Virus record (IMG/VR): IMGVR_UViG_3300035670_012130
Coordinates: 1-64,000 of that record
Reading direction: 5' to 3' (one strand)
DNA from: a virus
Length of the DNA: 64,000 bases
Part shown: positions 23,412 through 44,249 of the stretch, one piece after another
How the letters are laid out: every line of letters starts with the position of its first letter
How positions within the stretch are numbered: the stretch's first letter is position 1
Translations under genes and position numbers: made by a program
Notes under the pieces: generated by a model
Told to the model about the DNA's origin: nothing
What the model saw: only the letters and a program-made list of their open reading frames with translations
Database searches by the model: none

Positions 23412-24068
23412 ATGGCTATTCGTGCATTAAATACACTCGTAGTTGCAAACTACAATACAGCTGCTTCTGCTTCATGGCTTGCAGGTGATGCTCTTTACCT
23501 TCAATCTGATGGTACTGTTGCAGCAGCTTACAGAGCAGGTAGTGGTTTTACTACAATCACTCAACAATTAGGTAAATTTGTTGGTTTCTCTGCTGATGAT
23601 ACAGCAAGAACTGGCAATACTATGATCCTTGCCGATCCTGTTGGATCTTCATATACTGACGCTTCTGGCGTTCTTCAAGCAAATAACAACGGTTTTTACG
23701 TTGTTTCAAAGAGAGCAATTGGCGACTTTTTAGCTGAGAACGTAAATGGTGTAACCAACCCAACAGCTGGATCTTCTGGATATGAAGGCCCAAGAAGAGG
23801 CGTTGGTGTTTTCAACACCCCAGGTGCTCAATTCATCACTGATAGATTTGCTGGAACTGCTTCTTCAACCATCACCACCGACGGTGGTTCTTGGACTCCT
23901 GCTGTAGGAGATCTTCTTACAATTGCTGCTGCATCTGGTAATGCTGGCAAGCTTGTATTATTAGATCCTGCTGCATTAGGAACTGATGGTATTGTTGTTG
24001 GTAGAGTTGATTCTTATGATTCTGCTGCAGGCTTATTGTACTTTACTCAATTGAGTTCAACAGGCTAG
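23412..24068 (+). CDS. Probable capsid decoration protein, copy 1
   Basis: This encodes 218 residues with a strong AAGGAG ribosome site. It is beta-rich and Gly/Ala/Thr/Ser-rich without Cys, consistent with a surface-exposed virion protein made in quantity. It is closely similar to the gene at 24258: the first 16 residues are the same and the central block from VGFSADDTARTGN to VFNTPG is almost unchanged, while the last third diverges. Position immediately upstream of the major capsid gene supports a decoration or cement role; this is inference, and a head-fibre role is also possible. It ends in TAG. Confidence 0.65.
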   Translation: MAIRALNTLVVANYNTAASASWLAGDALYLQSDGTVAAAYRAGSGFTTITQQLGKFVGFSADDTARTGNTMILADPVGSSYTDASGVLQANNNGFYVVSKRAIGDFLAENVNGVTNPTAGSSGYEGPRRGVGVFNTPGAQFITDRFAGTASSTITTDGGSWTPAVGDLLTIAAASGNAGKLVLLDPAALGTDGIVVGRVDSYDSAAGLLYFTQLSSTG

Positions 24069-24257: not shown

Positions 24258-24911
24258 ATGGCTATTCGTGCATTAAACACACTCGTAGTTGCAAACTACA
24301 ATACAGCTTCAGATGCTTCGTTTTTAGCTGGTGACGCACTTTATGTTAAGTCTGACGGTACTGTTGCTGCAGCTTACAGATCATTGAGTGCTTTCAATAC
24401 CCTTGCAAAGCAATTAGGTACATTTGTTGGATTTTCAGCTGATGATACTGCAAGAACTGGCAATACCATGATTCTTGCCGATCCAGTTGGATCTTCATAC
24501 ACTGATGCATCTGGTGTTCTTCAAACAAATAACAACGGCTTTTACGTTGTTTCAAAGAGAGCAATTGGTGATTTCTTAGCTGAAAACGTCAATGGTGTAA
24601 CAAACCCAACTGCAGGTTCTTCTGGATATGAAGGACCAAGAAGAGGTGTTGGAGTTTTCAATACCCCTGGTGGTCAATTTGTAACTGATAGATGGGTATC
24701 TACTGGTTCCACATCGGTCACTTTAGACGGTGCTTCTGGTTCCTGGACCCCTGCTGCAGGTGATCTTCTTACAGTTGCTGGAGCTTCTGGCAATGCAGGT
24801 AAGCTTACCAGATTGGGTACTGTTGGAACTGATGGTGTTATCGTCGGTAGAGTAGATTCTTATGATTCTGCTTCTGGTCTTATTTACTTCACACAACTTA
24901 GTGGAGTCTAA
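24258..24911 (+). CDS. Probable capsid decoration protein, copy 2
   Basis: This encodes 217 residues, a paralogue of the preceding gene with the same N-terminus (MAIRALNTLVVANYN). Most differences lie in residues 17-55 and in the C-terminal third, where it has WVSTGSTSVTLDGAS instead of FAGTASSTITTDG. Ribosome site AGGAG at 24245-24249. Two copies with a conserved core and variable end suggest duplication followed by diversification of an exposed surface, or two positions on the capsid lattice. No match to a named family is claimed. Confidence 0.65.
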   Translation: MAIRALNTLVVANYNTASDASFLAGDALYVKSDGTVAAAYRSLSAFNTLAKQLGTFVGFSADDTARTGNTMILADPVGSSYTDASGVLQTNNNGFYVVSKRAIGDFLAENVNGVTNPTAGSSGYEGPRRGVGVFNTPGGQFVTDRWVSTGSTSVTLDGASGSWTPAAGDLLTVAGASGNAGKLTRLGTVGTDGVIVGRVDSYDSASGLIYFTQLSGV

Positions 24912-25816: not shown

Positions 25817-25850
25817 AAAAAAGGAGAGTTGATTTCAACTCTCCTTTTTT
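25817..25850 (+). terminator. Terminator after the major capsid gene
   Basis: AAAAAAGGAGAGTTGA (25817-25832), TT, TCAACTCTCCTTTTTT (25835-25850): perfect 16-bp stem ending in six T. It separates the head module from the carbohydrate island. Confidence 0.95.
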
Positions 25851-25876: not shown

Positions 25877-27190
25877 ATGACTAAAGAAGAATTACTAAAA
25901 TTAGTTGAAAATTATATTATAAGTGAACCAAGCAAAAAATGGAGACCTGGCAAAGATCATGTTCATTACGCTGGTCCTTATTTTGATCACACTGAAATTG
26001 TTAGATCAGTCTCTACATTATTGGATGGCTGGTTAGTATTGGGTGCTGAAGCTTACAAAGCTGAAAAGAAATTAGCGTCATTATTTGGCAAAAATCATGC
26101 GTTATTGACTAACTCAGGTAGTAGCAGCAACCTTCTCATGATGTCTGCACTTAAGTCAAAAAGATACCTCAATTTACCTGAAGGTACAAAGGTTTTGACA
26201 CCTATTGCTGGATTTCCTACAACTATTAATCCTATTTTTCAATGTGGATTCAAGCCTGTTTTTGTAGATATTACTTTAGATGGCTTGAATTTAAATTTAG
26301 ATGATGTTGAAGCTACATTACAAGCAGATCCAGAAATCAAAATTATTACATTTGCTCATGTTTTAGGAAATCCACCTGACATGTACAGATTATTAGATAT
26401 TATTGATCACTATGGTTTAATTTTATTAGAAGATTGTTGTGATGCTTTGGGTTCAACTTTTGACGGTAATCCTTTGGGCAGTTTTGGAACAATGGCTTCT
26501 TGTTCATTTTACCCAGCTCATCATATTACTTGTGGAGAAGGCGGACTGGTTGTTTGTAATGATGATAATTTAGAAAGAGTAATTCGTTCTATTCGTGATT
26601 GGGGACGTGGCTGTTTCTGCATTGGTAAGCAAAATATCACTGAGTGTGGTGCTTGTAATAAAAGATTTTCTGAATGGCTGCCTAGTATCCCGGGAGAAGT
26701 TTTTGATCACAAGTATGTCTATGAAGAAATTGGATACAACTTAAAGCCAATTGAAGTTCAAGCTAGTATGTTATTAGCTCAAATTGATAAACTCGGTGAA
26801 ATTAAAAAACTACGACAGAGAAATCATAGACTATTAACTGAAGTATTTGCAAAGTACGAAGAATATTTTGTTCTTCCAGTAGCTCAAAAAAACTCAGATG
26901 TAAACTGGTTTGCTTTTCCGATTACGGTTAAAGATAATGCGCCTTTTAAGAGAAGTGATCTTTGTCAATATTTTGAATCACATAAAATTCAAACTAGACC
27001 ATACTTTGCTGGCAATATTTTAATGCAACCAGCTTATAGTCATTTAGTAGGAGATATGGATCTTAGTGATTTCCCAGTAGCTAAAAAAATTACTACAGAC
27101 ACATTTTTCTTGGGCACTTCACCAGTAATAACTGAAGAGCAGATTGCATACATTGGTGAAGTTTTAGATAGCTTTATGAACAAAGATTAG
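25877..27190 (+). CDS. rfbH: CDP-4-keto-6-deoxyglucose 3-dehydrase (E1, RfbH/DdhC type)
   Basis: This 437-residue protein has a DegT/AspC-fold sequence with the RfbH hallmarks. The Schiff-base lysine of sugar aminotransferases is replaced by histidine in YPAHHITCGEGG (H215/H216), so PMP is used without a lysine. The cysteine set C246, C248, C257 and C260 followed by NKRF matches the [2Fe-2S] ligands of E1. Further conserved pieces are DHKYVYEEIGYNLK and PVFVDI. E1 with its reductase removes the C3 hydroxyl of CDP-4-keto-6-deoxyglucose, giving 3,6-dideoxy sugars. No CDP-glucose synthase (RfbF), 4,6-dehydratase (RfbG) or E3 reductase is seen in the window, so substrate or partners may come from the host or from outside. 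Confidence 0.85.
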   Translation: MTKEELLKLVENYIISEPSKKWRPGKDHVHYAGPYFDHTEIVRSVSTLLDGWLVLGAEAYKAEKKLASLFGKNHALLTNSGSSSNLLMMSALKSKRYLNLPEGTKVLTPIAGFPTTINPIFQCGFKPVFVDITLDGLNLNLDDVEATLQADPEIKIITFAHVLGNPPDMYRLLDIIDHYGLILLEDCCDALGSTFDGNPLGSFGTMASCSFYPAHHITCGEGGLVVCNDDNLERVIRSIRDWGRGCFCIGKQNITECGACNKRFSEWLPSIPGEVFDHKYVYEEIGYNLKPIEVQASMLLAQIDKLGEIKKLRQRNHRLLTEVFAKYEEYFVLPVAQKNSDVNWFAFPITVKDNAPFKRSDLCQYFESHKIQTRPYFAGNILMQPAYSHLVGDMDLSDFPVAKKITTDTFFLGTSPVITEEQIAYIGEVLDSFMNKD

Positions 27191-27208
27191 TGTTAAAGAA
27201 CTAATAGA

Positions 27209-27215
27209 GTATAAG
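27209..27215 (+). promoter_or_regulatory. GTATAAG element before the ThDP gene
   Basis: GTATAAG ends 7 bases before ATG 27223; no ribosome site. A weaker member of the leaderless class. Confidence 0.4.
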
Positions 27216-27222
27216 AATTAGT

Positions 27223-29010
27223 ATGTCTATAGAGAATAATTATATAGTTTCAGATCACATCGCAGAGTGGTTGGAAAATCACGAAATATCTGTGGTATTT
27301 GGAATTATTGGATCTGCTAATTCTTATATTTTTGATTCAATAATAAGAAGAGGATACACTAAAATTATATATATGCATCACGAACAAGCTGTTGCTATGG
27401 CTGCTGGTGCATACTATCGTACAAGTGGAAAGATTTCAGTTGCTATTGTTACTGCTGGTGGTGGCGCCTCTAATGCTATCACTGGAGTATTGAGTAATTG
27501 GGCTGATTCAATACCTTGTATCGTTATGTCTGGACAAGAATCTACAAAATATATTGAACAACATGAACACCTAAGAATGTATGGTACTCAGGGTTTTGAT
27601 GTAGTAAATATGGTTCAAAAAATCACCAAATTTGCCCAGATAGTAGATAAGCCAAGCGAGATTATTCTTTCTCTTGATAAAGCATATAAAATAGCTTTAT
27701 CTGGTAGGCAGGGTCCAGTTTGGCTTGATCTGCCTATGGATGTGCAATCTACAAAAATAAACAAATCAGAATTATTACCCAGTGAAACAGAATATTCTGA
27801 AGATTCAGACATTGACCTGAACTATCTTATTGAATTGATGAACGTATCTGAAAAACCCGTAATTTTAGCTGGACATGGGATTCGATTATCAAAGTCAATA
27901 AATGAATTCAACTGTCTGGTTTCTAAGTTTCAAATTCCTATATTGCATTCTTGGTCAGCAATTGATGTCATTTCAAGTGATAATCCTCTTAATTTTGGGT
28001 GCCCGGGGATTTATGGGCAGAGAGTTGCTAATTTTATAATTCAAAATTGTGATTTATTAATTGTAATTGGAAGCCGTCTAGCATTACCTCAAACAAGTTA
28101 TAACATTGATAATTTTGCTCCTAATGCTAAAATTGTTATGATCAATAATGACGAAAATGAATTAAATAAACATTCTCGCTATGAAATTAAAATAAATTCT
28201 GATTGCAAAAAATTTATTGAATCTTTGATGCTTTATTCGCCTGATTCTTATAAACCTGAGTGGGTAGACAAATGCAATTTTTATAAGCAAGAATTCCCTT
28301 TGATTGAAGATTGCCATTTGAAAGACAATGAAAATTTTGACAATTCATATGTGTTTATTAATCAAATATCTCAGATTTTGGATGATGATCATATTATTGT
28401 CATAGGTCAAGGAACGCCTTTACCTTGTGCTCATCAAGCTCTTTTTCACAAAAGTAATCAAACAATATTTGCATCTAATGGATTAGGAGAAATGGGCAAT
28501 GGACTTCCTTCTGCTATTGGCGCTGCAATAGCTTCTCCTGAAAAGAAAATAATTCTTTTTGACGGTGATGGGAGCTCTATGATGAATTTACAAGAAATGC
28601 AAACTTTGATAGGGTACAACATTCCATTAAAAATTGTCATTTTTAATAATGATGGATATTTGTTTATCAAGCATACACAGAAGATGTTATTTGAAGGAAG
28701 ATACACTGGAGTTGATGCTGAAACTGGAGTATCTCTTCCTAAATTTTCTAAAATTGCTAATGCATTCGGAATTGAATATTTCAGCAGTGTTGACAATAAT
28801 GTTCAAGAATTTCTAAATTTTGAAAGATGCGCAATATACGAAATCTTCATGAACCCAGAACAAGATTTAGTTCCAAAAGTTAAAGGTATAATGACAGAGA
28901 GTGGATTTTTATCACCACCAATCGAAGATATGTCGCCACTATTACCTTTAGAAACTATACAAAAATGCATGACAAAGGTTAATAAAATTTCTTATGAGAT
29001 AAGATCATGA
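27223..29010 (+). CDS. Acetolactate synthase-like ThDP enzyme (possible YerE-type sugar acetyl transfer)
   Basis: This encodes 595 residues with the full PYR-central-PP layout. Catalytic Glu54 is in MHHEQAVAMAAGAYYR. TAGGGASNAITGV follows. The PP-domain ThDP motif GDGSS...NNDGY begins near residue 447. Such enzymes decarboxylate pyruvate and transfer a two-carbon unit. Next to an rfbH-type dehydrase, the known parallel is YerE of Yersinia, which adds acetyl to CDP-3,6-dideoxy-4-keto-glucose to form yersiniose. That role is inferred from neighbourhood. It ends with ATGA overlapping the aldolase gene, so it is in an operon with the next four genes. A split homologue lies at 41703-43458. Confidence 0.75.
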   Translation: MSIENNYIVSDHIAEWLENHEISVVFGIIGSANSYIFDSIIRRGYTKIIYMHHEQAVAMAAGAYYRTSGKISVAIVTAGGGASNAITGVLSNWADSIPCIVMSGQESTKYIEQHEHLRMYGTQGFDVVNMVQKITKFAQIVDKPSEIILSLDKAYKIALSGRQGPVWLDLPMDVQSTKINKSELLPSETEYSEDSDIDLNYLIELMNVSEKPVILAGHGIRLSKSINEFNCLVSKFQIPILHSWSAIDVISSDNPLNFGCPGIYGQRVANFIIQNCDLLIVIGSRLALPQTSYNIDNFAPNAKIVMINNDENELNKHSRYEIKINSDCKKFIESLMLYSPDSYKPEWVDKCNFYKQEFPLIEDCHLKDNENFDNSYVFINQISQILDDDHIIVIGQGTPLPCAHQALFHKSNQTIFASNGLGEMGNGLPSAIGAAIASPEKKIILFDGDGSSMMNLQEMQTLIGYNIPLKIVIFNNDGYLFIKHTQKMLFEGRYTGVDAETGVSLPKFSKIANAFGIEYFSSVDNNVQEFLNFERCAIYEIFMNPEQDLVPKVKGIMTESGFLSPPIEDMSPLLPLETIQKCMTKVNKISYEIRS

Positions 29011-29690
29011 ACTTAACTTTGCAAACCATTCCTTCACCTGTTATATCAGAAATACTTTCAGATTCAAAACTTGATGGTATCGTTTTAGATACCGAGCATG
29101 GATGTTTCAATAATGAAACACTCTATAGTTGTATTCAAGTTATAACTCTATCAAATAAAAAATGCTTTGTTAGATTGACAGATTTCAATAAACAATTAAT
29201 TAGGATGTGCCTTGATGCTGGAGTTGATGGATTAATTTTTTCAACAATAGAAGATGAAAGCATAGCTTATAAGATTATCTATTATTGTAATTTTCCATCA
29301 AAATATGGCCAAAGAGGTTGCGGATTAGTTAGAGATAATAAATGGGGAAAATTACCTTTAGATCAAAAAAAACCAATTATTATTGCTCAAATTGAAACAA
29401 GTCAGGCCGTAGAAAATCTTGATAGCTTATTGAATGTACCCTTCGATTATTTCATAATTGGTCCATATGATTTATCATCTTCATTGGGTAAAGCTGGTGA
29501 TTTTGAATTCAAAACTTTCAAGAATTATATCGATATTATTTATAATAAAATTTCTCTTGATAAGTTAGGTTTATTTCTCCCTACTTTTGAGAATATGCAG
29601 ACATTATCTTTAGAAAAAAGACCAAAGTTGCTTATTTGGGGGATGGATACAAATTTTATCATTGACAGTATTGAAAGGATAAAAATATGA
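29007..29690 (+). CDS. HpcH/HpaI-family aldolase
   Basis: This encodes 227 residues. Family marks: GIVLDTEHG (about 24-32), CFVRL, DAGVDGLIFSTIE (metal/phosphate region), QIETSQAVENLD (metal-binding Glu) and IGPYDLSSSLG. These class II aldolases make or cleave 2-keto-3-deoxy acids with pyruvate as donor. ATGA overlaps on both sides place it between the ThDP enzyme and a second aldolase homologue. In this setting it may lengthen or trim a sugar skeleton with pyruvate; the true substrate is unknown. Confidence 0.75.
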   Translation: MNLTLQTIPSPVISEILSDSKLDGIVLDTEHGCFNNETLYSCIQVITLSNKKCFVRLTDFNKQLIRMCLDAGVDGLIFSTIEDESIAYKIIYYCNFPSKYGQRGCGLVRDNKWGKLPLDQKKPIIIAQIETSQAVENLDSLLNVPFDYFIIGPYDLSSSLGKAGDFEFKTFKNYIDIIYNKISLDKLGLFLPTFENMQTLSLEKRPKLLIWGMDTNFIIDSIERIKI

Positions 29691-30430
29691 ATGATTTGTT
29701 AGATAAACTTCGAGAAATTTCTAATCTTTACGGAGTTATTGGTATCAAGCAATCTTTTGAAGATGAAGGTGCATTACTAGAAGATGTTATTTCTGTCAGG
29801 CGAATTACTGAACTTTGTAATCTTTTATCTTTTGTGAAAGTGGGAGGTTGTGAAGCTAATACAGATATATACAACTGCCTCAAAATAGGTATAAATGGAA
29901 TTATTGCGCCTATGGTTGAAACACCTTTTGCAGTATCGAAATTTATGGATTGTTATGATAAAAAAGCACAATATTTTGTTGTTATAGAATCAAAAACTGC
30001 TTATGAAAACATTGATGACATTTTATCTATAGCTCATAATAAGTTGACAGGAATCATAGTAGGAAGATCAGACTTATCCAAATCATACAACTTGAATAAA
30101 AGTGAAGCTGACAGTGATTTTATACTTTCAATTACAGAAAATATTTTTGTAAAAGCAAAAAAGTATAATCTTTTGACTACATTAGGTGGTAATGTTTCTG
30201 TAAAAAGTTCAAAATTTATTGAAAAAATGTATCACCTTAATTTATTAAACAGAGTTGAAACTCGTAATGTTGTTATAGATTTAAACAACAATAATGTTAA
30301 TAAAATTGATTCAGTTATTCAAGAAGCAATAAACTTTGAAATTTTGCTTTTGAGAAATAAACTTCAAAATAGTTCTGCATTGATTGAAGACTATAAACGA
30401 AGAATTGATTTATTGAGCTCTAGAAAATAA
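29687..30430 (+). CDS. Second HpcH/HpaI-like aldolase homologue
   Basis: This encodes 247 residues. It retains the TIM-barrel pattern of the family: KVGGCEANTDI, GINGIIAPMVETPFAVSKF, VVIESKTAYENIDDI (metal-binding Glu) and GIIVGRSDLSKS. It differs strongly from the preceding gene, and the usual early D-x-E-H motif is not obvious, so it may have another activity or be a partner subunit. The C-terminal 40 residues form a probable coiled coil. It overlaps neighbours by ATGA and TAATG. Confidence 0.65.
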   Translation: MNDLLDKLREISNLYGVIGIKQSFEDEGALLEDVISVRRITELCNLLSFVKVGGCEANTDIYNCLKIGINGIIAPMVETPFAVSKFMDCYDKKAQYFVVIESKTAYENIDDILSIAHNKLTGIIVGRSDLSKSYNLNKSEADSDFILSITENIFVKAKKYNLLTTLGGNVSVKSSKFIEKMYHLNLLNRVETRNVVIDLNNNNVNKIDSVIQEAINFEILLLRNKLQNSSALIEDYKRRIDLLSSRK

Positions 30431-31602
30431 TGAATAGATTTGAGAATTTAAAAAAAATTATTCAAGGCCAAAATTGTTTTAAGATGATTTGTGGTGCTGG
30501 AAACGAAGATACAAAACAGGTCAAAAAACTTGCTTTTGTTTATACTTTAGCTGGTACAAAAATTTTAGATGTTTCAGCAAATGTAGATGTAGTTAAAGCT
30601 GCAGTAGAAGGAATTAATTTAGCTTTTGATTATAGCTCGATTTTAGGAATTACCTTAGACACTAAACCTTATATTATGGTGAGTATTGGTATGCCAGGAG
30701 ATCATCATGTAAGAAAATCTTATATTGATCCTTACAAATGTATAGGATGTACTTTGTGTATTCCTGTTTGTCCAACTGATGCTATACCAAAGAATTTTGT
30801 CAAAGAATTAGATGTTTTCAAGCAATTAAATGGTTCTTTTGACGAACCTGATAGCTCTAAAGAAATTGTAATCAAAGATTTGTGTATTGGTTGTGGTAAA
30901 TGCAGCAATATTTGTCCCAAAGATGACATTATTTCATATAGACATAGCTTTAGAGAACTTTCTATTTTATTACCTCAATGTATGGAAGCAGGAGCAGAAC
31001 TTTTTGAGCTTCATGCTGCTGTAGGTGAAGATGATATTACTCTTCAAGAATGGAAGTTGATTTCTGAGATAAACAAAGAAAACTATAACTCAATGTGTTT
31101 AGACAGATTGAATCTTGGAAATTTAAAACTTGAACATAGAATTGACGAAGCTAGAAAAATTTCTGGCGACAAAATCATGGTACAAGCAGATGGCTATCCA
31201 ATGAGTGGTGGAGAAGATGACTATAACACTACTTTGCAAGCTGTTTCTTGTGCAGATGTTATAAACAAAAAATTCAACATGAAATTGAATAAGAAAAGAG
31301 AGATTGATATTTTAGGTAAAGAAAAAATCTCTGCTAAAAAAATCTACAAGTCTGCATCTGATCAATCAGTAATTCCAATCTTAATTTCTGGCGGGACAAA
31401 CTCATATTCTAAAGAATTAGCAAATTTATCAGGAGTAAGAATAAACGGTGTATCCATTGGTACATATGCTAGAGATCTTGTTGAAAAGTTTATTATAGAA
31501 GAGAATTTTTGGGATGATCATGATTTAATCAAATCCGCTTATTTAGCTGCTAGTGAATTAGTGATTAAGAGTAATAGGGTTTATGATGAAGAAAAAAGAT
31601 AG
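30430..31602 (+). CDS. LdpA-like protein with two [4Fe-4S] ferredoxin motifs
   Basis: This encodes 390 residues. The N-terminal segment MICGAGNEDTKQVKKLAFVY with LAGTKILDVSA closely follows the LdpA pattern. Two ferredoxin clusters follow: C104/C107/C110 with C114-P, and C152/C155/C158 with C162-P. The C-terminal half reads as a barrel-like domain (LFELHAAVGEDD, IMVQADGYPMSGGEDDY, PILISGGTN). LdpA is best known as a redox-sensing Fe-S protein affecting the cyanobacterial clock, and relatives occur elsewhere. In this operon it could donate electrons, for example to the Fe-S dehydrase RfbH in place of an E3 reductase; this is inference. Confidence 0.7.
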   Translation: MNRFENLKKIIQGQNCFKMICGAGNEDTKQVKKLAFVYTLAGTKILDVSANVDVVKAAVEGINLAFDYSSILGITLDTKPYIMVSIGMPGDHHVRKSYIDPYKCIGCTLCIPVCPTDAIPKNFVKELDVFKQLNGSFDEPDSSKEIVIKDLCIGCGKCSNICPKDDIISYRHSFRELSILLPQCMEAGAELFELHAAVGEDDITLQEWKLISEINKENYNSMCLDRLNLGNLKLEHRIDEARKISGDKIMVQADGYPMSGGEDDYNTTLQAVSCADVINKKFNMKLNKKREIDILGKEKISAKKIYKSASDQSVIPILISGGTNSYSKELANLSGVRINGVSIGTYARDLVEKFIIEENFWDDHDLIKSAYLAASELVIKSNRVYDEEKR

Positions 31603-31966
31603 TTATGTTATTGCTGTAGATTTTGATGGAACTCTCTGTGAATACGCTTTTCCTAAAATTGGAGAGCAAAAGCAACATCACAAAGAACTTTTGAATTTAT
31701 TAATTGCAATGAGACAAAAAGGTCATAAACTAATTCTTTGGACTTGTCGTGGTGATAATGACGAATATCCTTGTTTAACAGAAGCCATCATGTGGTGTAA
31801 AAATCAAGGACTCGAGTTTGATGCAATAAATGAAAATATTATTGGAACTAAAAAACTTTCTGGTCCTAGTCCAAAAGTTGTAGCTGATTTTTATTTAGAC
31901 GACAAAGCATTAGTTTTTAATGATGAAAGTTTTATAAACACAATAAAATTTATTGAATCTATATAA
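31583..31966 (+). CDS. HAD-like hydrolase (BT0820-like)
   Basis: This encodes 127 residues overlapping the end of the preceding gene by 20 bases. The motif DFDGTLCEY (about 12-20) gives the nucleophile Asp and acid Asp. ILWTCRGD supplies the second motif, and ADFYLDDKA the acidic motif. Small HADs of this type are sugar-phosphate or nucleotide phosphatases and occur in phages and carbohydrate clusters. It is the last gene of the first island block and probably removes a phosphate from an intermediate, substrate unknown. Confidence 0.75.
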   Translation: MMKKKDSYVIAVDFDGTLCEYAFPKIGEQKQHHKELLNLLIAMRQKGHKLILWTCRGDNDEYPCLTEAIMWCKNQGLEFDAINENIIGTKKLSGPSPKVVADFYLDDKALVFNDESFINTIKFIESI

Positions 31967-33052: not shown

Positions 33053-33558
33053 AATAATAGTGTATTTTTATCTCTTTCAGATAAAATTGGATTATCTGAT
33101 ATCCAATTTATACCTATTTTGGGATCAGACCAATAAACAGATTTTTGATCTTTCACATCAGGATAATCACCATCATAACTCCACTTATAGTGAAAAATAG
33201 CTTTATCACTCAGAACTAAATGGCCATTCAAAAATCCTGGAGGAACAAGTACGCTCAATTTTTCCTTACTATCAGCATCTAAAATAAAATCAGTCCAAGA
33301 TAAATATTCAGAACATTCTTTGTCAAAATTTACAATAACTAATTGAATTTTTCCATATAAACAAGTAATTAATTTCCACGATTTATCAGTATGCAAACCT
33401 CTCAATACATTTTTATTAGAAGTAGCTACCTTGTCATGATTGAAATTCAATGAAGCAGTGTCGCTGTCTTTCCATATGGTAAACAATTCACCACGTTCAT
33501 CAATAAATGAATCTTTGGTAAAAACTGTCACTCCGGAAAGACAATCAACTCTAGCCAT
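33049..33558 (-). CDS. RmlC-like dTDP-sugar 3,5-epimerase
   Basis: This encodes 169 residues of cupin sequence with RmlC marks: FIDERGELFTIW, NVLRGLHTD (H56, the catalytic base position), KLITCLYGKIQLVIVN, VPPGFLNGHLVLSDKA and YWSDPKIGINW...ILSERD. RmlC epimerises C3 and C5 of dTDP-4-keto-6-deoxyglucose; relatives act at one centre. The usual GFAHGF around the second His reads GFLNGH here, so specificity may be altered. It overlaps the ColD-like gene by 8 bases. Confidence 0.8.
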   Translation of the reverse strand: MARVDCLSGVTVFTKDSFIDERGELFTIWKDSDTASLNFNHDKVATSNKNVLRGLHTDKSWKLITCLYGKIQLVIVNFDKECSEYLSWTDFILDADSKEKLSVLVPPGFLNGHLVLSDKAIFHYKWSYDGDYPDVKDQKSVYWSDPKIGINWISDNPILSERDKNTLLL

Positions 33559-34720
33559 TTAATACCTCAAGAAGTTTGGTAATTTTTTCTTTTTCAAGCC
33601 CTGGATAATTGCCTATGTACCAAGAAAAATTATGTAAATGTTCAATATTTGGAAAGTTAGAAAAATCATTATAAATAGACTTGAAAAATGGTTGCCTCAT
33701 TTGATTTCCACCACCAGAAAGTCCACGTCTAAATTCAATTCCATTATTTCTAAGCTTTCTTTCAACTTCATTACGTTTTGTAAAATCAGCGTCTTTCAAG
33801 ATTACAATAAAAGCGTAGTTACAATTTCCTTCAGTATTTAAGGCGATATGATACTTTTCAGGATCTAAATTCGAGATAAATATATCAAAATTTTCTCTTC
33901 TTTCTTGATTTTTATTATCTAGTTTTTTGAGCTGTGAAAGTCCAATTACAGCATTAATTTCTGTGCTTCTAAAATTGTGTGCTGGACGTAAGAAAATAAA
34001 GTCAGGATTTAAATCAGGATTGTCCATTGCTATTGAAATCTTCATGGAATCACTAGTCATTTCTCTAGTCATTCCATGTGATCGTAATGCCCTGCAAATT
34101 TGATAAAACTCCCAATTATTAGTAGAAATCATCCCGCCTTCAATTGTGGACATATGGTGAGCAAAATAAAAACTGAAATTACTTGCGAATCCAAAATTAC
34201 CCACTTTACATCCTTGGAAAGTTGTGCCGTGAGATTCGCATACATCTTCAATTAGTAGAATATTTTTTTGTTCACAGATTTCTAAAAGCTCATCTGTAAG
34301 ACCATTGATACCTAACACATGTGTAAGAAAAATAGCTTTAGTATTTTCAGTAATTGCATCTTTCAACTTATCAATATCAAATGACAAATTGGTAAAATTA
34401 ACGTCAACAAAAACTAATTTATGACCAGCAAATAAGACGGAAGAAATGTCTGAAATCCAAGTTAAAGGTGGAACAATAATTTCACCTTCACCAATTAAAT
34501 GTGATATGGCAAGCATTGTTAATTCATTAGCTGATGCTCCTGAATTTACAAATAAATTATATTTTGTTCCAAGCCATTCGCCCCAAGACTTTTCAAATTC
34601 GGCAACCTTAGGTCCATTTGTCAATTTTGGAATTGCGTCTTGAGACAAAAAATCTATTACAGAATTTATATCTTCTTTGTCAATATTATCATTCATCAAT
34701 GGCAAGAAAAATTTATTCAT
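33551..34720 (-). CDS. ColD-like PLP-dependent 4-keto-6-deoxysugar 3-dehydratase
   Basis: ATG at 34720 gives 389 residues, the length of ColD; a longer start at 34753 overlaps the E1-beta gene. The DegT fold is clear: FVNSGASANELTM, PPLTWISD, LLIEDVCESHGTTF. The lysine position is histidine in FYFAHHMSTIEGG (H188/H189), which in ColD (His188) gives a one-enzyme, Fe-S-free dehydratase that removes the C3 hydroxyl of GDP-4-keto-6-deoxymannose. No cysteine cluster is present, separating it from RfbH. It is preceded by a two-subunit ThDP enzyme and followed by an RmlC-like epimerase, an arrangement suited to further elaboration of the 3-deoxy product. Confidence 0.8.
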   Translation of the reverse strand: MNKFFLPLMNDNIDKEDINSVIDFLSQDAIPKLTNGPKVAEFEKSWGEWLGTKYNLFVNSGASANELTMLAISHLIGEGEIIVPPLTWISDISSVLFAGHKLVFVDVNFTNLSFDIDKLKDAITENTKAIFLTHVLGINGLTDELLEICEQKNILLIEDVCESHGTTFQGCKVGNFGFASNFSFYFAHHMSTIEGGMISTNNWEFYQICRALRSHGMTREMTSDSMKISIAMDNPDLNPDFIFLRPAHNFRSTEINAVIGLSQLKKLDNKNQERRENFDIFISNLDPEKYHIALNTEGNCNYAFIVILKDADFTKRNEVERKLRNNGIEFRRGLSGGGNQMRQPFFKSIYNDFSNFPNIEHLHNFSWYIGNYPGLEKEKITKLLEVLNG

Positions 34721-34721
34721 T

Positions 34722-35258
34722 TTATTTCTCGTTATAAAAATCGCCCCATTCAACTAAAATTGTCGGCCTATTGTCTGTACGCAAATATGCATATTGATAA
34801 GCTTCAAATATTTGATTAGGCTCATCCAATCTAATTATATCTACAAAATCACACATTGCTTTGAAACCACCTGTAAAATCAGCAATATGTTGATGTTGAG
34901 GATGTAATGGTCTTTGAGATCCAATCGATGTTCTTATGATGATTTTAGGCGTGTATCCACCATCAGACATAACTTTGATTTTATCTACATGATTTACAAG
35001 TTGATTAGCAGCAAGTAATAGAAAATTCCAACGAGGATATAGCGAAACTGGAACAGTGCCATTAAGTGCTATTCCCAATGTAATTCCCATTTGCATATCT
35101 TCATTTACAGGCATTTCTAAAAGTTTGCTTTTATCAATACCGCTAAGAGTATTTGTCATTGCAGTACCTGGATATTCAACAGCTTGACCAAGAAACAATG
35201 TGTCTTGTTGAGCACCAAGCCATTCCATAGATCTTTTTAATTCATCGAAATATTTCAT
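34722..35258 (-). CDS. ThDP enzyme E1 beta-like subunit (transketolase C-terminal type)
   Basis: This encodes 178 residues: FLGQAVEYPGTAMTNTLSGI, ...EMPVNEDMQMGITLGIALNG (Glu of NED is the ThDP-activating residue) and LYPRWNFLLLAANQLVNHVDKIKVMS. These match the PYR domain of 2-oxoacid dehydrogenase E1 beta/transketolase. The C-terminal ferredoxin-like domain of ordinary E1 beta (about 320 residues) is missing, so this is a minimal PYR subunit. It overlaps the alpha-like gene by 1 base, so the two should form one enzyme transferring a two-carbon or acyl unit, likely on a sugar. No E2 or E3 gene is nearby. Confidence 0.75.
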   Translation of the reverse strand: MKYFDELKRSMEWLGAQQDTLFLGQAVEYPGTAMTNTLSGIDKSKLLEMPVNEDMQMGITLGIALNGTVPVSLYPRWNFLLLAANQLVNHVDKIKVMSDGGYTPKIIIRTSIGSQRPLHPQHQHIADFTGGFKAMCDFVDIIRLDEPNQIFEAYQYAYLRTDNRPTILVEWGDFYNEK

Positions 35259-35863
35259 TAAAATTGGATCCTTTTTCCAGCTCCAGCATGTGGATATTTA
35301 GATTGATAACTGTAATAAATAATCTTTTTTTCGTTGCAATTGAATGCCAAAGTGTCAGAATTCCAAACTTTTCTAGTATCTGTGCAAACTGACTTGTTAT
35401 TGTCTTCAACTACAAATGTGATTGGTAAATCATGATTCAAGGCATATTTATAATTTTCAAAAAATGTACCTGTTTCTGAAGCCATATCACCAACAAAACA
35501 CCAAACATGATTTGTTTGATTTTTTCTTTTTATATCAAGTGCGACACCAGTGGCAATTGGGATGCTTCCAGTTACAATAGCTGAAGAATAAATGTTGTAA
35601 TCAGGATAGCAAAGTGTAATTGATTTTCCGCTAACTATATCTGCCATAAGGCGTTCTTGAGGAACGCCTTTGAGCAAACACTGGTAATGAGATCGCCAAG
35701 TGCAAAAAATCCAATCTTCATCTTTGACATTATTGAAAACTTCAATAATTTGCTTTTCATTACCATCGTAAAGATGAACTGGCGACTTGATTACTCCACT
35801 GTTGAATGTTTCAGCAACTTTTGTTTCAAAATCTACGAGTTCTTCGGGCGTATATTTTTTCAT
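35258..35863 (-). CDS. ThDP enzyme E1 alpha-like subunit (PP domain)
   Basis: This encodes 201 residues. FCTWRSHYQCLLKGV corresponds to the R-S/D-H loop of E1 alpha. FVGDMASETGTFFENYKYA with VVEDNN forms the ThDP pyrophosphate/Mg motif (GD...N-N). It is shorter than E1 alpha of pyruvate dehydrogenase (about 330-360). It overlaps the SDR upstream by ATGA and the beta-like subunit downstream by 1 base. Together they would make a small alpha2beta2 ThDP enzyme dedicated to this sugar block; the substrate is unknown. Confidence 0.75.
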   Translation of the reverse strand: MKKYTPEELVDFETKVAETFNSGVIKSPVHLYDGNEKQIIEVFNNVKDEDWIFCTWRSHYQCLLKGVPQERLMADIVSGKSITLCYPDYNIYSSAIVTGSIPIATGVALDIKRKNQTNHVWCFVGDMASETGTFFENYKYALNHDLPITFVVEDNNKSVCTDTRKVWNSDTLAFNCNEKKIIYYSYQSKYPHAGAGKRIQF

Positions 35864-40309: not shown

Positions 40310-40700
40310 TTTCCCAATCTTTGAAATCAGCTGCTAAACAATCAATTTTATAATCTTTTCTACCGCCAACGACTTCTTGAATTTTGTTTTTGGCGGTATT
40401 TCTTATTCCATTTAATCCATGTGTCAATTCGAGATTATTCCCATCTTTAATGCCTTTGCGATAATTGGTTTCATTATGCCAAATATGTAAATTCATCTGA
40501 GAAAGAACTACTATAGCTCTAATTACTTGAGCATCAACTATTGCGTTATTTTCGTCTAAATGTGCTTGTATATCATGAACTATAGATGCTATTTCTTCAG
40601 CATATTCACTTTTATGATCTGTAATAAAAACTTCCTTAAGTTGAACTATAGAAAGTCTGTCAATTAATTCCGAAAGAGTTGGTAAATATTTGCGATTCAT
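40299..40700 (-). CDS. Unknown small helical protein
   Basis: This encodes 133 residues, all helical in appearance, with LSELIDRLSIVQLKEVF near the start and a QMNLHIWHNETNYR motif in the middle. No family is claimed. It is the only leftward gene in this stretch. It starts from its own GTATAAT element, back to back with the RmlB-like gene, and collides with the end of 39596-40309. Confidence 0.6.
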   Translation of the reverse strand: MNRKYLPTLSELIDRLSIVQLKEVFITDHKSEYAEEIASIVHDIQAHLDENNAIVDAQVIRAIVVLSQMNLHIWHNETNYRKGIKDGNNLELTHGLNGIRNTAKNKIQEVVGGRKDYKIDCLAADFKDWEISW

Positions 40701-40707
40701 ATCTTGA

Positions 40708-40714
40708 ATTATAC
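40708..40714 (-). promoter_or_regulatory. GTATAAT element (minus strand)
   Basis: On the minus strand GTATAAT ends 7 bases before ATG 40700. The 41-base gap 40701-40741 holds two divergent leaderless promoters. Confidence 0.6.
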
Positions 40715-40728
40715 CTTGCTAAATGCAC

Positions 40729-40735
40729 GTATAAT
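40729..40735 (+). promoter_or_regulatory. GTATAAT element of the RmlB-like gene
   Basis: GTATAAT ends exactly 6 bases before ATG 40742. The stretch CGTATAATATTTTTATGAA is repeated exactly before the gene at 45829. Confidence 0.65.
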
Positions 40736-40741
40736 ATTTTT

Positions 40742-41695
40742 ATGAAAATTGTATACATAACAGGTTGTTTAGGATTTATTGGAAGACATGTGGCTCTATC
40801 TTGTCTGGAAAAGGGGTGGTATGTATATGGAATTGACAAATGTACTTACGCATCTGACATTAATTTATTGAGTGAATTTAATAAATATAAAAATTTCAAC
40901 TTTCAGCAAATTGATATCTGTTCTTTAGATAGGTTGGTAGATTGTGATTATTTCATAAACGTAGCAGCAGAAACGCATGTAGATAATTCTATTAGAAAAA
41001 GTGATGATTTTATTCATTCAAATATTAATGGAGTTTACAATATATTAGAATTACTTAAAAACTACAAAAAAGAAGGCTATGTAACACCTACATTTTTACA
41101 TTTTAGCACTGATGAAGTTTATGGTGATATTACTGATGGAGCGCATATAGAAACTGATTTATTAAGGCCTTCTAATCCTTATTCAGCTACCAAAGCAGCA
41201 GCTGATCAACTCATCACTGCTTGGTCTAGAACTTATGATTTGCCATATGTTATTGTTAGACCCACTAATAATTATGGATGCGGTCAATATGTTGAAAAGC
41301 TAATTCCCAAAGCCTGTAAATTTTTATCATTAGGAAGGAAAATTCCATTACACAACAATGGAACACCAACCCGAAATTGGCTGCATGCTAAAGATACAGC
41401 TAAAGCAGTAATGACTATAGTTGAATCAGATGTAAAAAATGAAATTTATAATATTGCTGGTGGATTTGAACAATCTAACCTTGATACTGTTCACAAAATT
41501 ATCAAAGAGTTTTACCCAGGCAGTGTCTTTGAAACAGAAGATTACATAAATTTCAATGTTCATAGACCAGGACAAGATGTAAGATATGCTCTTGATGATT
41601 CGAAGATAAGAGCATTGGGTTGGAAGCCTGAATGTGTGTTTGATGAAGAAATTAAAGAAATAGTAAAATACTATAAAGAAAATTTTGTATGGTAA
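40742..41695 (+). CDS. dTDP-glucose 4,6-dehydratase-like SDR (RmlB type)
   Basis: ATG 40742 gives 317 residues starting at the Rossmann strand (MKIVYITGCLGFIGRH). Longer start 40679 would read back into the divergent gene. RmlB marks: NVAAETHVDNSI, FLHFSTDEVYGDI (T-D-E catalytic triad), SNPYSATKAAADQLI (Y-x3-K), RPTNNYG and RNWLHAKDTAKAV. It would oxidise and dehydrate a nucleotide hexose to the 4-keto-6-deoxy form, which is the entry intermediate for both 3-dehydratases. The usual N-terminal TGGAGFIG reads TGCLGFIG. Confidence 0.8.
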   Translation: MKIVYITGCLGFIGRHVALSCLEKGWYVYGIDKCTYASDINLLSEFNKYKNFNFQQIDICSLDRLVDCDYFINVAAETHVDNSIRKSDDFIHSNINGVYNILELLKNYKKEGYVTPTFLHFSTDEVYGDITDGAHIETDLLRPSNPYSATKAAADQLITAWSRTYDLPYVIVRPTNNYGCGQYVEKLIPKACKFLSLGRKIPLHNNGTPTRNWLHAKDTAKAVMTIVESDVKNEIYNIAGGFEQSNLDTVHKIIKEFYPGSVFETEDYINFNVHRPGQDVRYALDDSKIRALGWKPECVFDEEIKEIVKYYKENFVW

Positions 41696-41702
41696 TTATC
41701 AA

Positions 41703-42719
41703 ATGAAAGTAAATGATTACATTGCTGAAAGATTGTATCAAGAGGGTATTAGACACGTTTTTGGCATAATGGGTGGTGGAGCTGCTGGTATAAATGATGG
41801 TTTTATCAGAAGCAAAATTGAATACATTTGTTTTCATCATGAACAAGGTGCTTCGAATGCAGCTTTGGCTTATAGCAAGTCCAAAAATCAGATTTCAGTT
41901 GTTAACCCTACCACTGGATGCGGAGGATTAAATTGTGTAACTTCTCTAGTGTCAGCCTTTCAAGATAGTGTGCCTTTATTATTTATATCAGGTAATTATC
42001 GACTTCAAGAGACTACCAGATATCTTAATAAAACTAAAAACATAAGCTTGAGAAAATTTGGTTTACAAGAGCATGATATTATTGAACATGTCAAGTATGC
42101 TACAAAGTTTTTTGCATTTATAGAAGACAAGAACGATGTTCCAATGGTCCTTGAAAAAGCAATTCAAAAATGTGTTAATGACAGACCTGGACCTTGCTGG
42201 ATTGATATTCCTTCTGATATTCAAACCCAAGAAATCGATAATAGTTTTTTATTTCCAAATATTGAAACTGAAAAAAAAATTTTAAACAAAACTTATATTG
42301 AAGAATTTTTCAGTATTTTAAATAATAGCAAGAGACCATTGATTTTGTTAGGTTCAGGGATAAATATTTCTGATTGTAAACAAGAAGTAATTGATTTTAT
42401 TGAATTGAATCAAATTCCAACAGTCAGTACATTTTCTGCAAAAAATATTTTGCCTTTTGATCACAAATTAAGTATTGGCACTATTGGAATAAAAGGAAGT
42501 AGAGCTGGAAATTTTGCTTTACAAAATTGTGATCTGTTAATTGCTTTAGGTTGTTCATTAAATTCATCACATACGGGATATGATAAAAAACTATTCTCAC
42601 CAAAATCCAAAAAAATCTTGGTAAATATTGATGAGAATGATTATTTGAAAAATAATGTAGATTTTGATCTATTTATAAAAAAAGACTTAAAAGGCTTCTT
42701 AAATGACATCAAGAATTGA
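41703..42719 (+). CDS. ThDP enzyme, N-terminal half (PYR and central domains) of a split acetolactate-synthase-like protein
   Basis: ATG 41703 gives 338 residues homologous to the first half of the ThDP enzyme at 27223: GIRHVFGIMGGGAAG, FHHEQGASNAALAY with the catalytic Glu, FQDSVPLLFISGN, GPCWIDIPSDIQ, and a central domain with NCDLLIALGCSLN. It stops at TGA 42717-42719 just before the PP domain, which is encoded by the next ORF in the +1 frame with a 17-base overlap. The TGA is followed by C. Two separate subunits or a frameshifted single chain are both possible. Confidence 0.75.
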   Translation: MKVNDYIAERLYQEGIRHVFGIMGGGAAGINDGFIRSKIEYICFHHEQGASNAALAYSKSKNQISVVNPTTGCGGLNCVTSLVSAFQDSVPLLFISGNYRLQETTRYLNKTKNISLRKFGLQEHDIIEHVKYATKFFAFIEDKNDVPMVLEKAIQKCVNDRPGPCWIDIPSDIQTQEIDNSFLFPNIETEKKILNKTYIEEFFSILNNSKRPLILLGSGINISDCKQEVIDFIELNQIPTVSTFSAKNILPFDHKLSIGTIGIKGSRAGNFALQNCDLLIALGCSLNSSHTGYDKKLFSPKSKKILVNIDENDYLKNNVDFDLFIKKDLKGFLNDIKN

Positions 42720-43458
42720 CTGGATTGAAAAGTGTAATTATTGGAAAGAAAAATGGCCTTTGTATACAGATTGTTTCATTGATGACAATGATGGAATAAA
42801 TTTATATACAATAATTGAGACTATAAATAATTGCTCTAACACCAAAGACATTTTGATGACTGACGCTGGTTCTGCAAATTATGTTTGTTGCCAAAATTTA
42901 AAATTAAAAAAAGATCAAAAATTTATTTTTCCTGCAGCTCAAGGTGATATGGGATTTTGTATACCTGCTTGTGTTGGAGCCCAATTGGCAAATCCTGACC
43001 ATAATATAATTGCAATTATTGGAGATGGCAGTTTTCAAACAAATATTCAGGAACTTGCTTCTATAAAAGCAATAAAATCTAATTCTAAAATTGTAGTTTT
43101 GAACAATGAAGGCTATCTAAGTATTAGAAACACACAAAGTAAATTTTTTAATGGAAATGTCTATGGTGAATCTAAAAGTACAGGCTTATGGTTTCCTGAT
43201 CTTAAAAAAATTGCTACAGCATATGAATTCGAATATTTCAGAATCGAAAGTAATAAAGATTTAGTTGATATTTTTGAAAACGAACTTCACAGTGAAAAAC
43301 CAATTATTTTTGACATCAAATGCAAATATTCTCAAGATGTAATACCAACTTCAGCTTTAAAAATAGATAAAAATTCAGGTAAAAAAATTCAATGTGGCTT
43401 AGATGACATGTATCCTTTCATGAGCGATGAAGAGCATTCAAAAGAGATGTTATATTGA
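42703..43458 (+). CDS. ThDP enzyme, C-terminal half (PP domain)
   Basis: This encodes 251 residues beginning MTSRIDWIEKCNYW, which aligns with PEWVDKCNFY inside the intact homologue at 27223. FPAAQGDMGFCIPACVG, IIGDGSFQTNIQELASI and VVLNNEGYLSI form the ThDP-Mg binding PP domain. AAAAGG about 10 bases before ATG 42703 could initiate it independently, which favours a natural two-gene split. The last codons overlap the next start (TGATG). Confidence 0.75.
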   Translation: MTSRIDWIEKCNYWKEKWPLYTDCFIDDNDGINLYTIIETINNCSNTKDILMTDAGSANYVCCQNLKLKKDQKFIFPAAQGDMGFCIPACVGAQLANPDHNIIAIIGDGSFQTNIQELASIKAIKSNSKIVVLNNEGYLSIRNTQSKFFNGNVYGESKSTGLWFPDLKKIATAYEFEYFRIESNKDLVDIFENELHSEKPIIFDIKCKYSQDVIPTSALKIDKNSGKKIQCGLDDMYPFMSDEEHSKEMLY

Positions 43459-44249
43459 TGAATATACTAATTACTGGTGGAGAAGGCTATGTTGCCTCAA
43501 ACTTATATAAGAACCTTGAATCAAGTTATAATTTAACTACAATTTCAAGAAAAGATTTAGATTTGACTATTTCTTCAGAGGTAAATGCTTTTTTTGAAAA
43601 TAAATTTTTCGACATTGTTTTTCATTGTGCTGTATGTGGAGGTAGCAGGTTAAAATTAGATAGTTATTATGAAATGGATAATAATTTGAAAATGTATTAT
43701 AATCTACATCAATTAAAAGATAAGCATTTCAAAAAATTTATCACATTTGGTTCAGGTGCAGAAACACACTCATCTCATACTCCTTATGGATTGAGCAAAC
43801 ATGTAATAGCTCAATCCATCTCTGAAACTGAGAACTTTTATAATCTTGTAATTTTTGCTCTTTTTGATTCAAGTGAATGGGAATCTAGATTTATAAAAGC
43901 AAATATTTTACGTTACATAAATAAAGATTCTATAATTATTCACCAAGATAAATACATGGATTTTTTTTACATGAATGATTTTATAAAAGTAATAAAATAC
44001 TATATTGAAAATCAAAGCTGCCCAAAATCAATTAATTTTTCATACGGTGAATCAACAAAACTTTCAGACATTGCAAAAAAAATCAACAATCTAAATAATT
44101 ATAAAGTTGATATTTGTATAGAAAATCAAGAAATTGCACCAAGCTATTGTGGAGATTATAATTTGGATGCATTGAATATTAATTTCGATGGCTTATACAA
44201 TGGCATTGAAAAAGTTTTTGATGAAATAAATTCTGCAAATTACAAATAA
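43458..44249 (+). CDS. SDR-family NAD(P)-dependent sugar epimerase/reductase
   Basis: This encodes 263 residues from ATG 43458, whose A is shared with the preceding TGA. ITGGEGYVASNLYKNL is the nucleotide motif. FHCAVCGGSRLK, a Ser in FGSGAETHSS and YGLSK (Y-x3-K) are present. The substrate domain is reduced. Similar in plan to GDP-fucose synthase/RmlD reductases. It lies directly after the split ThDP enzyme, so it may reduce the branched keto product; in the yersiniose pathway a reductase follows YerE. Confidence 0.7.
   Translation: MNILITGGEGYVASNLYKNLESSYNLTTISRKDLDLTISSEVNAFFENKFFDIVFHCAVCGGSRLKLDSYYEMDNNLKMYYNLHQLKDKHFKKFITFGSGAETHSSHTPYGLSKHVIAQSISETENFYNLVIFALFDSSEWESRFIKANILRYINKDSIIIHQDKYMDFFYMNDFIKVIKYYIENQSCPKSINFSYGESTKLSDIAKKINNLNNYKVDICIENQEIAPSYCGDYNLDALNINFDGLYNGIEKVFDEINSANYK

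Follow-up and report, generated by a model that had tools for sequence, protein, structure and literature searches.

A phage gene cassette with an LdpA-like iron-sulfur protein: a possible route to 2-oxo-3-deoxy sugar acids

The locus

The DNA analysed here, referred to as the window, is bases 1-64000 of the 106,125-base virus record IMGVR_UViG_3300035670_012130, which may itself be a fragment. Its terminase, portal and major head protein genes show that it comes from a bacterial virus (phage). Downstream of the gene for the major head protein, a terminator-like hairpin with a T run (25820-25850, plus strand, read directly from the sequence) precedes six plus-strand genes (25877-31966), encoding an RfbH-type dehydratase, a thiamine diphosphate (ThDP) enzyme, two proteins of the HpcH/HpaI superfamily (AldA and AldB), a relative of the cyanobacterial protein LdpA and a HAD phosphatase. 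We propose, with a probability of roughly 0.45, that AldB, the LdpA-like protein and HAD form a mobile cassette making a 2-oxo-3-deoxy sugar acid. What we observed is gene content, gene order, the pattern of partner genes and a predicted barrel-plus-ferredoxin architecture; the reactions are all predicted. The same observations suggest that the LdpA-like protein acts in the making of unusual surface sugars, as a hitherto unrecognised enzyme, and is not a missing electron carrier.

The first gene (25877-27190) encodes an E1-type nucleotide-sugar 3-dehydratase, RfbH, which scores 440.9 bits against NF011936 (cut-off 423). Alignment to 3bcx shows that it keeps the E1 catalytic histidine (FYPAHHIT), with cysteines at the E1 cluster positions (C188, C246, C248 and C260) that are invariant in 13 aligned sequences, so that the family score, the histidine and all four cluster cysteines are present together. 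The ThDP enzyme (TPP1, 27223-29010) is of the YerE/JanthE type: it has three TPP domains and its nearest PDB sequence is 8rph, at 501 bits against 257 for the next. The open frames of AldA (29007-29690, 227 aa), AldB (29687-30430, 247 aa) and the LdpA-like protein (30430-31602, 390 aa) overlap one another by 1-4 bp. The run ends with the third cassette gene, for a BT0820-like HAD phosphatase (31583-31966; NF046079 80.6 bits, below the cut-off of 165; 2obb 64 bits). An earlier note on this DNA had described two aldolases and an LdpA-like Fe-S protein in a phage operon with RfbH, over 29007-31602. The open reading frames (ORFs), families and gene run bear this out, with the correction that the HAD gene belongs to the unit too.

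The LdpA-like protein

Residues 9-355 of the protein align with positions 8-322 of the 360 in the NCBIfam LdpA model (NF045992), and the architecture recognised by this model and by Pfam LdpA_C and LdpA_Fe-S-bd is shared with cyanobacterial LdpA over most of the length. The score of 130 bits is far below the equivalog cut-off of 450, and the window protein falls just short of the LdpA_C gathering score (21.3 against 22.2 bits). NF045992 nevertheless matches all 24 relatives scanned (best E-value 6.5e-44), as does LdpA_C at E <=0.01 (best 1.9e-18). Two 4Fe-4S motifs, C104/107/110/114 and C152/155/158/162, are invariant in 24 aligned sequences; the region that holds them (residues 98-170; 30721-30939, plus strand) matches Pfam Fer4 and, by secondary structure, follows barrel strand 3. 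The two ferredoxin clusters claimed in the earlier note are therefore supported. As it matches most of the LdpA model and has both motifs, we regard the protein, from its scores, as a relative within the LdpA family and not as LdpA itself.

A survey of 11,264 genomes (PMC5520375) gives LdpA as exclusive to Cyanobacteria, which makes relatives in phages and Pelagibacteraceae unexpected. The cellular relatives that we found belong to Pelagibacteraceae and to a metagenome-assembled genome (MAG) labelled Chloroflexi and, like the phage genes and unlike cyanobacterial LdpA, they stand beside sugar genes. The gene is rare in the bacterial groups sampled: counting the seed genome, it was matched in 2 of 297 G025-family genomes (Pelagibacteraceae), in 1 of 400 genomes of the G024 phylum and in 1 of 398 of the G025 phylum (L numbers denote loci here, G numbers records or genomes). 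No match turned up among named phages at E 1e-3 or among plasmids at E 1e-10. One Lentisphaerae sequence (L011) was left out, its match being confined to the ferredoxin part (residues 102-175). The contig with L008/L036 is possibly misbinned, since its neighbouring genes resemble a capsule locus of another group. The literature searched held no description of the AldB-LdpA-HAD cassette, nothing on LdpA with Pelagibacter and, among papers on LdpA and phage judged from their titles, no phage LdpA. The family relation noticed earlier thus stands, and the hint of a cyanobacterial origin drawn from it is weak: the score is 130 of 450 bits, the cellular relatives lie in other groups, and our LdpA tree, which holds no cyanobacterial LdpA, is of a kind that does not settle origin.

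The predicted structure is a (beta/alpha)8 barrel with a two-cluster ferredoxin inserted after strand 3 (pLDDT 85, pTM 0.81; 65-89 per ten-residue block over the insert). Among the 50 fold matches listed, the nearest are mostly sugar-phosphate and aldolase-type barrels (Z 15.6-17.2), scores that in this model are too even to name a reaction or a single enzyme; among the 60 PDB sequence matches listed, the top ones are ferredoxin-type proteins. A set of polar residues is invariant in the family (K18, C21, D47, D91, H93, E193, H195, C223, D225, R226, Q252, D254 and N324), and all lie in or just after predicted barrel strands. Because of these residues and the kind of barrel that the model resembles, the protein appears enzyme-like.

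LdpA itself is described as redox-sensing in PMC5520375, and the family relation over most of the length could be taken to mean that the phage protein is likewise a non-catalytic redox sensor, or an assembly factor for the sugar enzymes, in keeping with the part of cyanobacterial LdpA as a clock input protein. The invariant polar set at the barrel strands, and a pairing with AldB and HAD that recurs in virus and cell genomes alike, make this quite unlikely.

The cassette and its partners

We collected 29 loci with a near-full LdpA-like gene, 25 viral and four cellular. By record there are 26 virus records, several of them short fragments and one (G023) with a truncated LdpA. AldB lies directly upstream of LdpA in 25 of the 29 loci (in L021 as a fragment at the contig end) and HAD directly downstream in 27, missing from L029 and from L035 (contig end). 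This grouping is not due to chance. In the 22 loci measured, spacing runs from -14 to +25 bp between AldB and LdpA and from -83 to +5 bp between LdpA and HAD. The AldB proteins that adjoin LdpA form one supported clade (SH-aLRT 97; 25 rows, including L030 with its truncated LdpA), outside which fall seven relatives linked to an AroB-related gene, plus two from L001 and L015.

Enzymes of two kinds accompany the cassette, and both kinds use 2-oxo acids. A ThDP enzyme lies within about 3.5 kb in 16 of the 29 loci and a cytidylyltransferase of the type that makes cytidine monophosphate (CMP)-ulosonates in 11; the remaining two (L021 and L035) are truncated at contig ends, and no locus has both within that distance. 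In record G016 a cytidylyltransferase does occur, at a distance of about 8 kb, and there is a NeuB elsewhere. On the LdpA tree, parsimony requires five or more switches of partner, and two or more of these are forced by well-supported branches.

The gene content of viral sugar loci is highly varied, and the cassette might be no more than a bystander block of surface-sugar genes brought together by transfer, with no pathway in common. We think this distinctly improbable, as the genes abut or overlap in all 22 loci measured and the partner pattern is kept over the partner switches. The distances of the three cassette proteins are also moderately correlated (r 0.57-0.65), a weak argument, since relatedness alone could give such values.

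In seven of eight CMP-class virus records there is neither a NeuB match nor a KdsA/DAHP-synthase match. G303, a genome of unknown completeness from the same family as G025 (Pelagibacteraceae), has the cassette followed by a PseF-like gene, no NeuB match and a single DAHP_synth_1 match, on another contig. Beside the cassette, KdsB subfamily models pass their cut-off of 255 in L004 (266) and L036 (270). It is conceivable that AldB, the LdpA-like protein and HAD make an unusual aldehyde or deoxy sugar, to which AldA or another enzyme adds a pyruvate unit to give the 2-oxo acid. In L004, L028 and L036 an AldA-like gene does separate HAD from the KdsB-like gene, and AldA-like genes adjoin the ThDP enzyme in the window and in L014, L016, L018, L020 and L022. 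In eight of the 11 CMP-class loci, however, there is no AldA beside the cassette, and genes of the NeuB or KdsA type are not beside it either (the NeuB on the L037 contig is about 8 kb away). AldB would therefore have to form the ulosonate there, and we consider the aldehyde or deoxy-sugar route unlikely.

One cellular locus of this kind, L034 (12276-15655; G025 family, Pelagibacteraceae), has the cassette followed by PseF-like, HisF-like, HisH-like and WbuX amidotransferase genes, a set that suggests an amidino-type sugar.

A second arrangement occurs in some RfbH loci that lack LdpA, where AldB relatives stand near a short-chain dehydrogenase/reductase (SDR) gene and an AroB-related ORF. The family models were run on the L065 pair only, and its AroB-related ORF scores 318.7 bits against TIGR04425, below the cut-off of 400. 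This phospholyase-type module resembles the cassette in that, in virus loci, its AldB relatives have RfbH and ThDP genes as neighbours, and differs from it in that SDR and cyclase replace LdpA and HAD and that its AldB comes from other clades. By analogy, the phosphorylated product of an aldolase may lose its phosphate and be reduced along either of two lines, one by cyclase and SDR and the other by LdpA and HAD.

RfbH and its electrons

RfbH-type dehydratases of the E1 kind are served by an iron-sulfur flavoprotein reductase, E3. The earlier note saw no E3 gene, and we found none: in the whole 106,125-base record, possibly a fragment, neither Fer2 nor NAD_binding_1 had a match. It had gone on to suggest that the LdpA-like protein stands in for E3 and passes electrons to RfbH, an idea that draws on the two 4Fe-4S motifs, on the shared gene run with an E1-type RfbH and on the missing E3. 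Across records the two genes do meet: 15 of the 26 LdpA virus records have an E1-type RfbH (at least 618 bits). The other 11, among them G023 and several short fragments, lack one, five having weaker DegT-family matches (63-268 bits) and six none, and we saw no E1-type RfbH in the four cellular LdpA stretches read. From the side of RfbH the association is looser still. We kept 80 virus loci anchored on RfbH out of at least 591 confirmed relatives; an LdpA-like gene is missing from 78 of them, the two that have it come from records already known from the LdpA search, and among the 31 loci of at least 21 kb there is none. Of the 15 LdpA records with an E1-type RfbH, 13 fall outside these 80 loci, namely the window's own and 12 other fetched virus records.

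The missing E3 is a wider matter. No NAD_binding_1 match passed the cut-off in 50 records, of which 48 had been fetched through RfbH; a single match below it reached 12.8 bits. As far as these samples go, the RfbH of viruses therefore stands without a viral E3 as a rule, whether or not LdpA is present. The LdpA-like protein itself has no Fer2, flavin or NAD domain match in Pfam. SpnQ draws electrons from ferredoxin or flavodoxin reductase pairs (PMC8987622), so that such pairs are able to serve enzymes of this kind, and rfbH is already listed among viral metabolic genes (PMC10653327).

One virus, L018/G011, is an informative exception. Its genes run RmlB-like, ThDP, AldA, AldB, LdpA, HAD, a flavin- and nicotinamide-dependent (FAD/NAD) reductase whose ORF overlaps HAD, and SDR, and among the 24 LdpA records tested it alone has a NAD_binding_1 match. 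Its sole RfbH-like protein has the catalytic histidine and no cysteine at the cluster positions, and it keeps LdpA all the same. With those cysteines missing, the reductase is unable to serve an E1-type cluster in that dehydratase; it may serve the LdpA-like protein.

A role for the LdpA-like protein as E3 was thus rejected on co-occurrence, with the caveat that 80 RfbH loci were kept of at least 591 and 12 records with both genes, besides the window's own, were missed, and we hold it to be very improbable. There is no need to seek a stand-in E3 in viral RfbH operons.

At L039, 3618-4340, a gene for a 240-aa FAD/NAD reductase overlaps the cassette HAD gene; its record is the one of the 24 LdpA records tested that has a NAD_binding_1 match.

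The aldolases and the ThDP enzyme

Both members of the aldolase pair pass the Pfam HpcH_HpaI cut-off of 25 bits (AldA 47.9, AldB 35.5), and to this extent the earlier description holds. AldA keeps D28-x-E30-H31, R56, E130 and D155, invariant columns in nine sequences, and H31, R56, E130 and D155 are what we take to be the catalytic histidine, arginine, glutamate and aspartate of HpaI-type enzymes, which would place it with the class II aldolases. In AldB the presumed HpaI catalytic histidine is missing, and with it the presumed mark of a class II enzyme: no histidine is invariant in 23 sequences. AldB is nevertheless like HpaI and SbnG in fold (model pLDDT 92; best matches SbnG, Z 18.9, and HpaI, Z 18.3) and keeps E101 and D129, presumably equivalent to their metal ligands, at only 13-21% identity.

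The ThDP enzyme is predicted to transfer an acyl unit to a keto sugar. HpcH/HpaI aldolases typically make 4-hydroxy-2-oxo acids. In all six LdpA loci that have a ThDP enzyme at least 60% identical to TPP1, the window included, there is also an AldA (57-63% identity); the RfbH set adds L054, where the contig end truncates a ThDP enzyme this close to TPP1. The closest structure, 8rph, is JanthE according to PMC12188165, and ErwE, of the same type, is described in PMC12247030 as preferring 4-hydroxy-2-oxo acids, where YerE uses pyruvate. A pyruvate-based chain extension by the paired aldolases, as the earlier note proposed, gains indirect support from this preference.

An FMN-dependent dehydrogenase gene (L061, 13638-14831) precedes the ThDP and aldolase genes of one RfbH virus locus.

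Other genes of the window

Further along the plus strand lie genes for an RmlB-like nucleotide-sugar 4,6-dehydratase (40679-41695; TIGR01181 301 bits, below the cut-off of 365) and an SDR reductase (43455-44249; Pfam Epimerase 59.5 bits). Both are common company for viral RfbH: BLAST matches to RmlB, other epimerases counted, occur in 72 of the 80 RfbH-anchored loci and to SDR in 48.

Between them a second ThDP enzyme is split over two overlapping genes, 41685-42719 for the N-terminal and middle domains and 42703-43458 for the C-terminal domain. The same split occurs in L040, L062, L064, L066, L067, L071, L078, L093, L095 and L108, and because it recurs across these ten other loci it looks like a conserved two-gene form and not a frameshift. 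Two minus-strand ORFs at 34722-35863 look like the two parts of a transketolase or alpha-keto-acid dehydrogenase (E1_dh, Transket_pyr), which makes a third ThDP system for this phage. A second DegT-family protein (33551-34753) has histidine for the usual lysine (FYFAHH) and lacks the E1 cysteine pattern, which makes it a candidate ColD-like dehydratase. Upstream of the major head protein gene are two near-duplicate neighbouring genes of about 218 aa (23412-24068 and 24258-24911).

Discussion

In the pathway that we propose, AldB would join pyruvate or phosphoenolpyruvate to a sugar phosphate, giving a phosphorylated 2-oxo-3-deoxy acid. This acid might then be reduced or deoxygenated by the LdpA-like protein, whose barrel carries a two-cluster ferredoxin of its own, and HAD would remove the phosphate. 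For the CMP class, the next step would be activation of the product to a CMP-ulosonate by a cytidylyltransferase similar to PseF or KdsB. In the ThDP class, to which the window belongs, the YerE/JanthE-like enzyme would decarboxylate the 2-oxo acid, or a form of it extended by AldA, and move the acyl unit onto the keto sugar that the 4,6-dehydratase and RfbH supply, with RfbH probably drawing its electrons from ferredoxin or flavodoxin systems of the host. The resulting branched dideoxy sugar would probably serve to remodel the host surface.

Each half of this scheme has a known counterpart. The classical routes to 3-deoxy-D-manno-octulosonic acid (KDO) and the nonulosonic acids follow the order KdsA-KdsC-KdsB and NeuB-NeuA. 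The CMP class likewise lines up a carbon-bond enzyme, a HAD phosphatase and a cytidylyltransferase, but with AldB and LdpA in place of NeuB or KdsA. The ThDP class has the genes of the branched-sugar pathways of YerE, ErwE and JanthE, namely a YerE-like ThDP enzyme, a nucleotide-sugar 3-dehydratase and an SDR. It departs from them in being phage-encoded, in that no E3 was found, and in having two HpcH/HpaI proteins and an LdpA-like protein.

A number of observations weigh against this proposal. In four of the 29 loci (L001, L012, L015 and L029) AldB does not immediately precede LdpA, and the divergent L029 has no HAD either. L030 keeps AldB and its ThDP enzyme although only a remnant of LdpA is left and the HAD of the cassette has been lost; as those two genes persist there without a full LdpA, LdpA is dispensable in that locus. 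Some loci are near-copies of others (L013/L024, L020/L021/L022 and L025/L027), the samples are small, virus records may be fragments, which makes gene absences weak evidence, and the LdpA tree was built by a quick method and has two long rows (L029 and L023). The absence of NeuB and KdsA also has exceptions: in G021 a NeuB match at the cut-off (22.2 against 22.1 bits) and a KdsA-like match fall at one place, NeuB occurs elsewhere in G024, G025 and G026, and DAHP_synth_1 is matched in each of the four cellular genomes. The KdsB-like proteins miss the kdsB equivalog (128 and 134 against 155.2 bits) and the three PseF-like proteins tested reach only 60-73 bits against 205.7, so from these scores the substrate class of the cytidylyltransferases is unsure.

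The enzymes themselves raise similar doubts. The aldolase role of AldB and the enzyme role of the LdpA-like protein are putative, and because AldB lacks the histidine that we take to be catalytic in HpaI it may be something other than an aldolase. Plain pyruvate could be the substrate of the ThDP enzyme, and L042, in the RfbH set, has one 51% identical to TPP1 and no AldA. The link between a reductase and LdpA comes from one virus, L018/G011.

In L030, at 9989-10667, what is left of LdpA is an 83-aa ORF, LdpA-like in its first part, and the next ORF is HAD-like but of a different type.

Taken further, the LdpA family might be a new class of ferredoxin-fused (beta/alpha)8 sugar-acid reductases, spread by phages and with the clock protein LdpA as a relative, which together with AldB and HAD would provide a route to activated ulosonic acids independent of NeuB and KdsA. 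We regard this broader view as possible but doubtful. If the cassette does make ulosonic acids or donors for ThDP enzymes, it would add an iron-sulfur step to the synthesis of bacterial surface sugars. It would also mean that proteins of the LdpA family have an enzymatic role open to testing outside the clock, and that phages swap one precursor cassette between two kinds of sugar pathway.

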